This document shows, piece after piece, positions 40,177-43,794 of a DNA stretch of 43,794 nt. A model generated the notes under the pieces. The model was not told the DNA's origin. It saw nothing but the letters and a program-made list of their open reading frames with translations, and made no database searches. The stretch covers positions 1-43,794 of the forward strand of contig CAISPV010000034.1 of NCBI GenBank assembly GCA_903887485.1, in the 5' to 3' direction. Numbering within the stretch: the first letter of the stretch is position 1; every line of letters starts with the position of its first letter. The DNA comes from an uncultured Desulfobulbaceae bacterium (GTDB taxonomy: Bacteria; Desulfobacterota; Desulfobulbia; Desulfobulbales; Desulfocapsaceae). The position numbers and the translations under genes are program-made.

Positions 40177-40352
40177 CCCATGAGGCTCTTGCAAAAGTAC
40201 CATTAAATTCCCTCCCCACTGGAGGGGGAGGGTTAGGGTGGGGGGGGAAGTAGCCATGAAATTATCATGTTGCATGCTTCACCCTCCCCCTAACCCCCCT
40301 CCCGTCAAGGGAGGGGGGCATATCTGGAAGAGTATTGCAAGAGCCTCCCATG
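40177..40352. mobile_element. MITE-like element with 6-bp target duplication
   Basis: The element proper is 40183-40346 (164 bp). It has perfect 12-bp terminal inverted repeats, AGGCTCTTGCAA at 40183-40194 and TTGCAAGAGCCT at 40335-40346. The direct repeat CCCATG flanks it on both sides (40177-40182 and 40347-40352). Inside are opposed C-rich and G-rich blocks (about 40208-40248 and 40281-40318) that could fold strongly. It has no coding capacity, so it must have been moved by a transposase elsewhere. It lies inside the tail of the decayed integrase gene. Confidence 0.85.
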
Positions 40353-41157
40353 TAAGAGGTATTCACATCCTGCACCCGCAGTCGCAATAGCTCCATGAGC
40401 CACAGACCGGCGCCGTACATGAGCTGGGTCATGAGCCGGTTGGTGCCGGACAGTTGGGCAAACAGCGCCTGGCACTCCCGCTGACTGGGCACGGCTGGTA
40501 TCCGTTTACTGAGGCGATCGGGACGGAAGCCGGAAAAATCTCCGTGATCGCGGCCTAAGGCCTCCCTCTGGAGAAAGACCAGCGCATTCAAGGCCCCTGC
40601 CGCCGGGTGCCGGCCGAGACCTTTCTGGCCACAGCCAGGTGGTCGAGAAAACTACGGATCTCTTCAGCTCCCGCCTCTGTAACGGGTCGCTCTCCCAGCC
40701 AGGCGGCAAAGCGATGGGTCCATCCCCGATAGGTCTGCTCGGTACGCCACTGCAGATGTCTTCAGCGAATGACCGTCACCAGAAGCTGCTCCCATGGCAG
40801 CCCTCCCTTGTCCTCCCGCTCGACCTTGATCACCTCTTCCCGTATCACCGGCGCAGAAGAATCTGGGCCCTCATCTCCTCGCTGGATGGATGCGGCCTTG
40901 AAAAACCAGCGCAGGGAAGAGCGGGCGGAATCCGTCCTTTTACCCTTTTCCTCCAGGGTGCGCAGATAGTCCAGCACCGAGTCCACCGAGGCCCGGCGGT
41001 GTGCGGCCTTGAGAAACTTCAGCCAGGCAAAGATTTCCTGTTCCCGTGTGCGGAGCTCGGCAGGATCGGGGCATTCCGATTGCAGGACTTCCCGCCACCG
41101 GGGAAACGAGACGGGGGTATTGATAGGCGTGCCGACTTTGTCTTTTGACTTGTGCAT
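40353..41157 (-). pseudogene. Integron integrase (IntI-like tyrosine recombinase), inactivated
   Basis: Reading from ATG 41157, a core-binding-type domain (SFPRWREVLQSEC to SSLRWFFKAA) runs to a stop at 40762-40764. The same frame then continues with a second such domain, WRTEQTYRGWTHRFAAWLGE to SAGTRRQ, until another stop near 40594. A shifted frame carries LNALVFLQREALG, QALFAQLSGTNRLMTQLMYG and AGLWLMELLRLRVQDV, the start of the catalytic domain as in integron integrases. Box I Arg (AGLRLME in relatives) is Trp. Box II, the catalytic Tyr and the integron-specific patch are lost at the MITE side. So four lesions are present. The divergent orientation to the cassette array is classical for integrons. 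Confidence 0.82.
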
Positions 41158-41370: not shown

Positions 41371-41385
41371 ATAATACTGTTAGGT
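41371..41385 (+). other. Candidate attI recombination site and first cassette junction
   Basis: The core GTTAGGT (41379-41385) matches GTTRRRY apart from one base. Its complement ACCTAAC is the R'' box of attC1 (41873-41879), which shows that the first cassette starts at 41380, between G and TTAGGT. The upstream AATAATACT would be the attI side. The left limit of attI is not defined. Confidence 0.7.
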
Positions 41386-41497
41386 TTGAAAACAGAAAAT
41401 ATCGTCATGTATAAAATTACACCTTGAATTCTTTTTCGACATGCAATATGTTGCTTCTCGAAAGGTTGTTGTTAAACTCAATTCAAGGAGAAAAACT

Positions 41498-41878
41498 ATG
41501 AAACTAGTAACAGTAAACCAGTCAATAAATCAGCCTGATATTTCAGATTACAAGTCAAGTTATCCCAAAATGCCGTGCAATACTGATAAAAAAGAAATTT
41601 TGTTTGGCATTATCACACAACCAAAGAATATTTATTCTGCATTAATAATTGCAGAAACAACAGGTTATTCCCCTGTATTTTTTTATGAAAAACAAATCCA
41701 AGCTGCTATTCATTCTGGGAAACTTACTCCTTTAGATCCTCATGAAAAACAATTTGTTGGTACCGCAACTTGTGTTGTAATGGAAAGTAATGGCTGGAAA
41801 AAAACAGGAAAAAAACAACGCTATTCAAAAGGCATCTTCTCAAGTGCTGAAATATACACAAAAAAAATAACAACCTAA
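41498..41878 (+). CDS. Cassette 1 protein, unknown
   Basis: A 126-residue product I do not recognise. It has no signal peptide or membrane segment. Features are a Lys-rich C-terminal half (GWKKTGKKQRYSKGIF) and a central hydrophobic stretch (EILFGIITQPKNIYSALIIA). AAGGAG precedes ATG 41498; an in-frame ATG at 41441 lacks a ribosome site and is only 60 bases from the junction. The stop codon lies within attC1, typical of cassette genes. Base composition is AT-rich, unlike the chromosome genes to the left, as expected for a captured cassette. Confidence 0.65.
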   Translation: MKLVTVNQSINQPDISDYKSSYPKMPCNTDKKEILFGIITQPKNIYSALIIAETTGYSPVFFYEKQIQAAIHSGKLTPLDPHEKQFVGTATCVVMESNGWKKTGKKQRYSKGIFSSAEIYTKKITT

Positions 41879-41937
41879 CCAGACGTTTGAGTCGGATTGC
41901 GGGAACAGCTCCGCAACCGCTCAACTCTACGTTAGAT
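41873..41937 (+). other. attC site 1
   Basis: R'' ACCTAAC (41873-41879) and R' GTTAGAT (41931-41937) bound a 65-base element. The arms GTTTGAG/CTCAAC and CGGATTGCGG/CCGCAACCG pair with an unpaired base between, around an 8-base loop. This is the folded single-strand form used by integron integrases. The cassette joins between 41931 and 41932. Confidence 0.92.
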
Positions 41938-41996
41938 GCTCCATAGTAAAAAATACTATGAGATTTACACCCAGATTTTCACAGAGGGAAAACTCA

Positions 41997-42593
41997 ATGA
42001 AGCTTGATCAGGATGACTATGAGAATATTTTTCTTCGGGTCAGAGAAAGGCTATTTTTCCAGATATTTGCTTTTTTCACGCTTCTATTCTCGATCATTGG
42101 AATTACAACGTGGTTTTCCGCTAAAACGAAAATTGAAAAGATAACCGAATCCGCAGTCAATAAGTACGTTCAATCGGATGAATTCAAGAAGACCGTTGTA
42201 GCTTCTTATCAAGAAAAGCTGGCTCGGCTTGAAAGCCAAACTGCTGAAATAACCAAGACGATATCCGATCAACAACAAAGAGCTGCGCAACTATCCGAAA
42301 TTCCGATTCTCATCGATCAGAACGGCTTAACCCTCGTCAACAAGACTGGCCAACAATTTCGGATTGAAATGGGTAGTGCCAATAGTGGCGCGAAGGTTTG
42401 GTTTAAAGCCCCCTATAAGGCAGAACCAACTGTTCTTCTTAGCATAGACAGCAACAAACTTGATGGGATTGCACTTCACCGAATGCAGGTGAAGGGAACG
42501 ACAGCACTTTCGGCGAGTTCTACTTCATTCGGGTTTGAGATACCACCGTCAGTATATCCAATAAATTATCGCTGGGTTGCGCTTGGGCAATAG
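41997..42593 (+). CDS. Cassette 2 membrane protein with H-type lectin-like C-terminus
   Basis: A 198-residue product. One membrane helix (about 20-40, FQIFAFFTLLFSIIGITTWF) is followed by a coiled-coil stretch (about 45-100, Lys/Glu/Gln-rich with heptad-like Leu and Ile) and a beta-rich C-terminal domain (about 115-197). The pattern VWFKAPYKAEPTVLLSID, then HRMQVKG, SFGFEIPPS and RWVALGQ resembles the H-type lectin fold seen in phage tail fibres and snail lectins, by eye. Topology would place the lectin-like head outside. GAGGG precedes ATG 41997; ATG 41958 is an alternative adding 13 residues. It ends six bases before attC2. Confidence 0.65.
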   Translation: MKLDQDDYENIFLRVRERLFFQIFAFFTLLFSIIGITTWFSAKTKIEKITESAVNKYVQSDEFKKTVVASYQEKLARLESQTAEITKTISDQQQRAAQLSEIPILIDQNGLTLVNKTGQQFRIEMGSANSGAKVWFKAPYKAEPTVLLSIDSNKLDGIALHRMQVKGTTALSASSTSFGFEIPPSVYPINYRWVALGQ

Positions 42594-42598
42594 ACCGC

Positions 42599-42662
42599 AT
42601 CTAACCCGTCGTTCAAGCGGGACGCCGTAAAAGCGCGGCGCCCCCTTAACTCTACGTTATGC
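42599..42662 (+). other. attC site 2
   Basis: R'' ATCTAAC (42599-42605) is complementary to the TTAGAT start of this cassette at 41932, which proves the pairing. R' is GTTATGC (42656-42662). Arms CGTCGTTCAAG/CTTAAC and GGGACGCCG/CGGCGCCCC form the stem around GTAAAAGCG. Cassette 2 spans 41932-42656. Confidence 0.93.
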
Positions 42663-42677
42663 ATAAAAGGAGAACAT

Positions 42678-43181
42678 ATGAGTGTATTTGGTACTTTTCC
42701 AAACGAAGATGCACGGGTAGAAAAAAAGGATGGTTCAGTGGCTGGACCTTATAAAGCAATCTTTGCTGGTACTTCTATCATTGTTCCAGATGCTCATGCT
42801 GACATAGAAGAAGGGGATGTAATTCTAAGAAAATTGCCGAGTGGTAAAGACGAGCGCAGCATTGCTACCCAAGTAACATTTTTTCAAAAAATGCATTCGA
42901 TACCCTCCCATTACCAAATTAAATTTAAAAAAGGGAGTTTACATAAGATGCAAGACAAACCATCGCATAACATCACTATTAACGGTGCCCAGTCTGTGCA
43001 AATAGGAGATTTTAATACACAAAATGTAATTAACTCGTTTCAAGCATTAAAAAATCAAATCGAATCATCGTCTGCCACTGCGGCTGATAAAGAAGAAGCA
43101 CAATCTTTACTCTCTAAACTATTTAGCCATCCATTGGTAACATCAATCTTGGGTGCCGCTGCCGGAGTAGTTTTAGGGTAA
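42678..43181 (+). CDS. Cassette 3 gene A: beta domain, RHIM-like motif, hydrophobic tail
   Basis: A 167-residue product. Residues 1-90 form a beta-rich domain (GPYKAIFAGTSIIV, IEEGDVILRKLPSGKDER, PSHYQIKFKKG) of a type I recall in many proteobacterial hypotheticals. Residues 98-116 carry NITINGAQSVQIGDFNTQN, whose VQIGDxN core matches the RHIM amyloid motif (I/V-Q-I/V/L-G-x-x-N). After a helical stretch (120-148), the protein ends in a Gly/Ala-rich hydrophobic segment HPLVTSILGAAAGVVLG that could insert in a membrane. AAAGGAG precedes the ATG. Function is unknown; signalling by amyloid templating with gene B is my inference. Confidence 0.72.
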   Translation: MSVFGTFPNEDARVEKKDGSVAGPYKAIFAGTSIIVPDAHADIEEGDVILRKLPSGKDERSIATQVTFFQKMHSIPSHYQIKFKKGSLHKMQDKPSHNITINGAQSVQIGDFNTQNVINSFQALKNQIESSSATAADKEEAQSLLSKLFSHPLVTSILGAAAGVVLG

Positions 43182-43268
43182 ATCGCAGCTGTTTTTTGCT
43201 ATCAATTGTTTGATTTTATGTTTTGTGCATAACATCTAAAAATTCTTTATAGCTAGGTTTTGTTAATA

Positions 43269-43640
43269 ATGGCCAATCCAAAAATAATTTACAATTTAGA
43301 AAAAATTATACACCAACAGATAACCAAATTGCCTTTAAATAAACGATTGGTGTCGTCTGATTTAATAAGAGATGTTGTATTATTCTATATTAATACACTT
43401 AATGATAAATCTGATACATGGAAAAACGACCTAAATTTTGTTCTTGATCAACTTGTCAAAAATAATTTTGTTATCATTGTTGATGAGCCAAGAAGCCCTT
43501 TTTTTACTATTGGGCGTGGTTTGGATTTCGATGATTGGAGTAATAAAATTAGAAGTAGCATCACGTCAGGTGCAATAAACATCAATGTAACTGCTAACAG
43601 TGTGCAAATAGGTGACAATAATAAGCAAGCCCTGAAGTAA
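43269..43640 (+). CDS. Cassette 3 gene B: small helical domain with the same RHIM-like motif
   Basis: A 123-residue product. Residues 1-95 look alpha-helical with a winged-helix-like end (LNFVLDQLVKNNFVIIVDEP, RSPFFTIGRGLDF). The C-terminal tail (103-120) has INVTANSVQIGDNNKQ, repeating the VQIGDxN core of gene A in an Asn-rich setting, and the protein stops three residues later. ATG 43269 is chosen; a TTG nine bases upstream is possible, and no strong ribosome site is visible. It lies 87 bases after gene A in the same cassette. The shared motif suggests that the products interact. I do not know the family. Confidence 0.7.
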   Translation: MANPKIIYNLEKIIHQQITKLPLNKRLVSSDLIRDVVLFYINTLNDKSDTWKNDLNFVLDQLVKNNFVIIVDEPRSPFFTIGRGLDFDDWSNKIRSSITSGAININVTANSVQIGDNNKQALK

Positions 43641-43653
43641 AATAAATGCAACC

Positions 43654-43715
43654 GCATAACGAATAAGGATAGATTGTGAGCGCGCAGCGATCCACAATCT
43701 TATCCATGGTTGAAC
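43654..43715 (+). other. attC site 3
   Basis: R'' GCATAAC (43654-43660) complements GTTATGC at the start of this cassette (42656-42662), so cassette 3 is 42657-43709 and holds both genes. R' is GTTGAAC (43709-43715). The stem GGATAGATTGTG/CCACAATCTTATCC is strong, with loop AGCGCGCAGCGAT. Confidence 0.85.
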
Positions 43716-43794
43716 AAGCCCGGGGTAATAACAAGGAAATATCTTTTTCAAAGGATTCTGTCAGAAGTGCTATCGAATGATATGCACTTTTCTC
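43710..43794 (+). other. Start of cassette 4, cut by the window end
   Basis: After the R' of attC3 the next cassette begins with TTGAAC. Only 85 bases are visible and no gene start can be supported. Its attC should begin with GTTCAAC if it is intact. Confidence 0.6.

Follow-up and report, generated by a model that had tools for sequence, protein, structure and literature searches.

The window, by which we mean the whole stretch of DNA analyzed here (43,794 nucleotides), is an entire contig (C34) of a 3.19-Mb genome in 124 contigs. At its right end there is a split recombinase remnant, followed by three cassettes separated by attC-like hairpins, and the last cassette carries two short genes, A and B (Table 1). 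The two ORFs of the remnant make weak matches to Phage_integrase and Phage_int_SAM_1 that lie under the Pfam cut-off, and judged by eye the remnant is probably IntI. Re-reading of the sequence confirmed the ORFs of A and B, their coordinates and the motif in each as described in the first-pass annotation.

Table 1. Features at the right end of the contig.
Feature	Position	Strand	Details
Tyrosine recombinase remnant, probably integron integrase, in at least 2 frames	40265..41157	-	ORFs 40265-40591, 40762-41157
attC-like element closing cassette 1 (cassette start 41380)	41873..41937	.	boxes ACCTAAC / GTTAGAT
attC-like element separating cassette 2 from the A-B cassette	42599..42662	.	boxes ATCTAAC / GTTATGC
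A-B cassette	42657..43709	+	begins with TTATGC, which can pair with the cassette's R'' box GCATAAC at 43654
Gene A, 167 aa, phrog_16834 member	42678..43181	+	profile E 2.5e-33, residues 4-164
A head (residues 1-90), beta barrel, predicted phage-neck-like fold	42678..42947	+	AF2 model, VIA-align
A RHIM-like motif (residues 98-115)	42969..43022	+	core VQIGDFN, residues 107-113, 42996-43016
Effector-like tail of A (residues 116-167), helical with a Gly/Ala-rich hydrophobic terminus	43023..43178	+	
Gene B, 123 aa, head of no assigned family and C-terminal motif	43269..43640	+	ATG 43269
B RHIM-like motif	43575..43628	+	core VQIGDNN at 43602-43622
attC-like element closing the A-B cassette	43654..43715	.	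R'' GCATAAC, R' GTTGAAC

Each of the three consecutive cassettes has an R'' box whose complement stands at that cassette's own start, the pairs being GTTAGGT at 41379 with ACCTAAC at 41873, GTTAGAT at 41931 with ATCTAAC at 42599, and GTTATGC at 42656 with GCATAAC at 43654. The element behind B folds into a hairpin (43656-43717, z = -3.4) that none of 200 shuffles equaled. The bottom strand of the element closing cassette 1 also folds (z = -3.4), and the element in front of A gives z = -2.15, with 3 of 200 shuffles equally good. The A-B cassette thus shows the mark of an integron cassette, an attC-like site whose boxes can pair with the beginning of the cassette. From this complementarity, together with the hairpin behind B, it follows that A and B lie in one cassette, as had been claimed. 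Its G+C content is 35%, against 51% for the window. A possible relic of cassette fusion between the two genes, seen as R''-box letters at 43227, was dropped; the same letters occur inside gene A, and the stretch does not fold. The two cassettes upstream (41441-42593) hold ORFs of 145 aa, with no family match, and of 198-211 aa, with none above cut-off; by eye, the longer one has a single hydrophobic segment near its N-terminus and a coiled coil.

Genes A and B share the motif S-VQIGD-x-N and are otherwise unrelated; the local alignment of the two proteins is confined to the motif (A 98-115, B 104-120; 18 of 1000 shuffles reach its score). Searched with any codons, VQIGDxN occurs twice in the 3.19-Mb genome, both times in the A-B cassette, where 0.037 matches per genome are expected by chance and the control gave none. 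A profile built from 11 relatives, leaving out A and B, picked out only A (E = 4.4e-5) and B (E = 0.064; best domain 0.17) among the 1222 frames of the window, with E values scaled to the whole genome; scaled to the window, the value for B becomes about 9e-4 (0.064 x 1222/89111). The motif is real and more than a chance resemblance. Taken by itself, the motif of B is moderately significant, given the E value that it reaches in a profile free of A and B, and is thus supported, not overwhelmingly.

The first-pass annotation had called this motif RHIM-like, and the comparison with animal proteins bears this out. Both sequences have the core [IV]-Q-[IVL]-G-x-x-N lying in a beta segment, and the core with a beta segment upstream is also what is found in the RHIM amyloids of the RIPK1/RIPK3 necrosome. 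We constructed a profile of 26 positions from A, B and 11 bacterial relatives (13 chosen representatives), without animal sequences, and searched it against 177,635 distinct PDB sequences. Nine of the 14 hits, and the nine best, are five RIPK1 chains (E = 2.6e-5 to 0.015), three RIPK3 chains (E = 0.027 to 0.04) and one chain of PDB 12kl (E = 0.027). The last is named ribonucleotide-reductase-like, and the other chain in that entry is RIPK3; ribonucleotide-reductase-like proteins are known as viral carriers of RHIMs. The next hit, LpxD, has an E value of 0.61. The Pfam RHIM family PF12721, with its cut-off of 20 bits, is not reached by A (12.7 bits) or B (11.8 bits) and is passed by two relatives (22.2 and 23.4 bits). 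It was listed for 8 of the 16 proteins scanned (A, B and 14 relatives, with E limits of 1 or 0.2), twice above the cut-off and six times below, A and B included. By profile, then, the motif is RHIM-like. In contrast to RIPK1 and RIPK3, A and B are bacterial and mobile and have no kinase or death domain, and A has the effector-like tail in the same chain as the motif.

Gene A is a full-length member of phrog_16834 (positions 2-171 of 192 are matched), a phage protein family whose function is listed as unknown in the library; A differs from it in lying in an integron cassette shared with B. A relative in a genome of the same genus has 38% identity. Another is found in Cronobacter phage ENT39118 (protein ADZ13605, 66% identical to family member L020, through which it was found), and virus contigs of IMG/VR gave two overlapping sets of 18 and 46 loci. 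Where the host of a relative is named, it belongs to Enterobacterales, Methylobacterium, Phaeobacter or the deltaproteobacteria, the last including Electronema, a cable bacterium that grows as filaments. Of the 46 virus-contig relatives, 45 have the core Q[IVL]G[DN]xN, and of 20 non-redundant relatives 18 retain it. Among these 20 members the best conserved columns are I128, A141 and G159, followed by G110, N113, column 142 (mostly K) and Q108, which puts three core residues (Q, G and N) within the seven most conserved; the 20 were retained by a 62% identity filter from 57 sequences that include repeat fetches of the same contigs, and the set is partly motif-selected, as most relatives were found with motif-containing profiles and one found with the whole of A (L004, on a plasmid) has no motif. 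The family alignment contains A and 15 of 23 loci, leaving aside seven with other heads and one fragment (L033).

The Gly/Ala-rich hydrophobic tail noted earlier at the end of A is present and conserved, and is preceded by a conserved helix. It is only moderately hydrophobic, with a maximal 19-residue Kyte-Doolittle mean of 1.72; a maximum of at least 1.6 is reached by 3 of the 24 proteins listed, including A. The helix at residues 120-147 gives weak Pfam matches to T4_RIIA1 in A and three relatives (E = 0.09-0.19).

The module of motif, helix and tail also occurs behind heads other than the DGxRxGPYK head of A (L011/L012/L017, L014, L015, L038 and L111), and these heads look helical by eye. 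The hosts are Mangrovibacter (L011), Erwinia (L012), an Enterobacter plasmid (L005), Candidatus Electronema (L014) and Methylobacterium (L015). The module by itself aligns across two of the non-A head types at E = 1e-16, and the module of A aligns with that of the Enterobacter plasmid at E = 3e-11. Since the same module follows different heads, the head and the RHIM-effector module appear to be exchangeable. The motif seems to be exchangeable too, judging from a Phaeobacter plasmid protein (L004:4001-4579) in which the head of A is kept while an Asn-rich segment replaces the RHIM core and the tail is a different one. A different beta segment also takes the place of the motif in two module proteins (L014 and L112). 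Judged from sequence, motif and tail are normally in one chain in this family, and head, motif and effector-like tail can all share a single chain.

We modeled A with AF2 using an alignment of 16 rows. Residues 11-80 form a confident beta barrel (block pLDDT 83-93), the motif region at residues 87-110 has a pLDDT under 50, and helices follow from residue 111 on (blocks 59-90, mostly 65-90). The motif stretch is predicted to be disordered and the tail to be helical. The low pLDDT of the motif is as expected for a RHIM, which is described as disordered in its monomeric state in the passages cited (PMC12133306).

Among PDB chains, the closest match to the barrel in VIA-align is the phage Chi protein recorded as 'Neck 2' (8vhx_F), with Z = 9.9 over 83 residues and an rmsd of 2.4. 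It is followed by the Douge connector, the phiXacJX1 connector, the Pam3 neck and phage 7-7-1. Six of the eight rows with Z of at least 8 are phage neck or connector chains, and the other two (2kz4 and 2pp6) we take to be gpFII-like prophage proteins. A lambda neck chain, presumably gpFII, matches with Z = 7.8 and an rmsd of 5.7, and at Z about 7 further connector chains are interspersed with barrels of the PilZ and chymotrypsin types; a Z of 7 to 8 is usual for models that lack a clear match. The best E value for the barrel in Foldseek is 0.015. On the model, therefore, the head of A is predicted to have the fold of a phage neck protein. At the level of sequence no similarity was detected when 21 heads (drawn from 37 distinct heads, reduced to 27 by similarity) were compared by hhalign with six Chi Neck 2 and three lambda FII sequences (E = 0.17 and 0.12), a test of little power since a positive-control pair of neck families reached only 0.023. 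Phage_H_T_join_2 was matched by one of the 21 heads (E = 0.049) and the head-tail adaptor phrog_615 by two (best E = 0.1), in neither case better than unrelated families; phrog_615 was found in none of the 23 virus records carrying the family of A. Searching PDB sequences with the heads (hmmsearch) produced just two hits, of no use at a best E of 0.97. While the predicted fold is shared with phage neck and stopper proteins such as Chi Neck 2 and the lambda neck chain, A differs from these in lying outside any structural gene cluster and in having its head fused to a RHIM-like motif and tail.

In ENT39118 the relative of A lies alone on the plus strand amid minus-strand genes, between the antitermination genes and those on the lysis side. 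Among 16 loci that we inspected, the gene is opposed to its larger neighbors in eight (one of which, L100, is probably ENT39118 itself), lies one or two genes after a repressor-like gene in five, and has no clear placement in three; labels of neighboring genes were assigned by eye except in ENT39118, and mechanical ORF calls add small plus-strand frames at some loci. The position after a repressor-like gene is close to that of rexAB in phage lambda. We infer that both prophage positions are sites of genes expressed in the lysogen, and the occurrence of the family in prophages fits a role in phage conflict.

Translation of gene B from an alternative start (TTG at 43260) would give 126 aa. Only four residues follow the core, so that the motif forms the C-terminal end and there is no effector tail, and Pfam finds no NLR domain. 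The first-pass annotation had described the head of B as winged-helix-like, a fold that is at most putative. A structure model from the single sequence had a mean pLDDT of 41, too low to be used for the fold. Comparison of the head with those of three relatives with other heads gave E = 0.077 (hhalign). No relatives of B were found in plasmids, and of 13 pattern stretches in virus contigs none was confirmed. There was no convincing relative in 249 related genomes, which gave one weak match besides B itself (E = 0.005), nor in 321 genomes from the class of Erwinia, where 12 matched at E of 0.05 or less (best 0.002), a number that we attribute to chance in view of how many genomes were searched.

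It had been proposed that the two genes exemplify a general pairing of receptor and effector, and that their families would be found together elsewhere. This was not borne out in the samples searched. Among 395 genomes of the phylum, no other has two good matches to the motif profile. In that set 39 genomes match at E of 0.5 or less, the only matches better than 1e-3 are the two of the window and one relative of A (L038), several of the remainder are NosL-like or curlin-like by eye, and one genome (G563) has two weak matches (E = 0.034 and 0.32). Nor does any of the 321 genomes from the class of Erwinia have two matches; six match at E of 0.02 or less, once each, and the clear relatives are L113 (in the centre genome itself) and L114. 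As no other examined genome has two good matches, relatives of A are generally without B, and the claim of A-B pairing rests on a single cassette.

Taken together, these observations suggest that the cassette may encode an amyloid-triggered suicide defense. In what we regard as the best reading, A would be a sensor, RHIM and effector of phage conflict in one chain, and B a RHIM adaptor or regulator. The head of A, shaped like a subunit of the head-tail connector or neck, would bind a structural protein of the incoming phage that forms rings, or assemble together with it. Clustering of the heads would gather the RHIM-like segments, predicted to be disordered, and so nucleate a RHIM-type amyloid; the helical, Gly/Ala-rich tails, clustered in turn, would damage the membrane before the phage progeny have matured. 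B would enter the same amyloid through its own motif, either as a second sensor or adaptor or as a regulator. We assign a probability of about 0.4 to this scheme, in which A is a one-chain abortive-infection protein with a neck-like head that triggers the amyloid and B joins through its motif. A bolder version, which we consider unlikely, is that prophages and integrons carry a switch of this one-chain kind that resembles necroptosis: a decoy neck subunit would sense virion parts of a competing phage and the RHIM amyloid would kill the cell, with B making the cassette a two-protein, NLR-free bacterial necrosome.

An alternative is that A is a RHIM-driven toxin and B its antidote, a tail-less RHIM that caps or poisons the amyloid of A in the way of viral decoy RHIMs. 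B does have the motif and no tail, the genes stand in the order A-B within one cassette, and viral RHIM proteins that block necroptosis are described in the sections cited of two papers (PMC12133306, PMC7375649). In the stretches fetched around 46 virus-contig relatives of A, however, we found neither a B nor a second ORF with the core motif, so that A does not generally need an antidote of the B type. In 18 whole virus records, moreover, a looser pattern matched exactly once in 14, with none in the control; of the four records without a match, one contains a fragment, and the relatives in the other three have a core that escapes the pattern. We think an antidote role for B rather unlikely.

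The motif might instead be a structural beta element, such as a solenoid turn or a trimer core, that has nothing to do with amyloid signaling and is shared by chance or through a small duplication. Bare VQIGDNN is not diagnostic, for among the matches listed in virus contigs (80 loci, one of them without an ORF, hence 79 in-frame ORFs) 61 ORFs are a single unrelated beta-repeat protein, four belong to the family of A and 14 are others. This protein, with GTGDVNLGADTVQIGDNNANATLTTQGTGD-type repeats (virus contigs L138-L217), is the main source of VQIGDNN among those matches, and the pattern misses most of the family of A, which has HN in place of NN. Similar stretches, SVQVGDFNT and SIQVGDYNT, occur in proteins that we take to be NosL-like (L044, L047 and L059), in our view by chance resemblance. 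B has a weak Pfam match to a beta-helical trimerization domain (E = 0.016, below cut-off), LpxD is the next hit in the PDB, and no direct DNA repeat detected in the cassette is longer than the one formed by the two motif stretches (28 nt, 79%). Against this, the best RIPK1 hit is more than four orders of magnitude better than LpxD and the best RIPK3 hit about one, and the model has low confidence around the motif of A, as would be seen for a disordered stretch. A purely structural element seems improbable to us. Least probable, in our judgment, is that A jams the connectors of competing phages during virion assembly, with motif and tail merely aggregating the complex and no cell death; the neck-like predicted fold of the head and the moron-type positions of the relatives in prophages would agree with this, but it leaves unexplained the retention of both RHIM core and tail when the head is an unrelated one.

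Among the nearest known systems is BASS3, a RHIM-like bacterial amyloid motif of NLR-Bell gene pairs that forms amyloids, with a precedent for cross-seeding with RHIM; as presented in the passages cited (PMC7889193, PMC8086366, PMC7885112), the killing role of these pairs is still a hypothesis, and most of the BASS pairs reported come from actinobacteria and cyanobacteria. Like BASS3, the A-B cassette has a RHIM-like motif common to two adjacent genes, one of them with a putative membrane effector. The architecture is different, however. The NLR partner in BASS3 pairs carries the motif at its N-terminus, whereas B is a protein of 123 aa with the motif at the C-terminus and no NLR; and the BASS3 effector has the motif at the C-terminus of the Bell domain, whereas that of A is central, with the helical tail behind it. 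Unlike BASS3, moreover, the family of A is carried by prophages, a plasmid and an integron. PADLOC models gave no match for A or B in the 2023 library, from which absence does not exclude a role in defense. Integron cassettes are presented as a reservoir of phage defense genes in Vibrio in the portion cited of one study (PMC12409362), and another, likewise cited in part, has the TIR protein SpbK protecting against phage SPbeta and interacting with the YonE protein of that phage (PMC12847820). Among the matches listed from open-licence PubMed Central, no title or abstract start tied a bacterial RHIM to phage defense or to prophages.

RHIM amyloids drive necroptosis in animals, and the RHIM-like BASS3 motifs of bacteria have been tied to NLR-Bell gene pairs. 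Here a RHIM-like motif is found in small mobile genes that lack an NLR and are carried by prophages and an integron, and it is joined to a head predicted to fold like a component of the virion; in the best reading this would be a new, mobile, NLR-free variant of RHIM-type amyloid signaling. If that is correct, amyloid signaling of the necroptosis type would be linked directly to conflicts between phages, with phage structural proteins turned into sensors, and the genes would provide a very small system for studies of RHIM nucleation in E. coli. The family phrog_16834 gains a testable candidate function.

Two further observations concern neighbors of A relatives in prophage contigs. A gene two places upstream of the relative (L103:1770-2255 and L105:1816-2229) encodes membrane-like segments and the stretch TIKIKGNRG[HQ]INLGH[QH]T, possibly a divergent RHIM-like sequence, which gave no alignment with A above shuffles. 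In two other contigs with an A relative, a beta-like segment VGQ..G..N..G is shared by the C-terminal tail of a repressor-like protein and the N-terminus of the next, membrane-ended protein (L107:1237-1752 and 1727-2350; L108:1189-1704 and 1679-2302), with 15 and 14 of 1000 shuffles, respectively, equally good. From their sequences these may constitute a second amyloid-like pair in the same operon.
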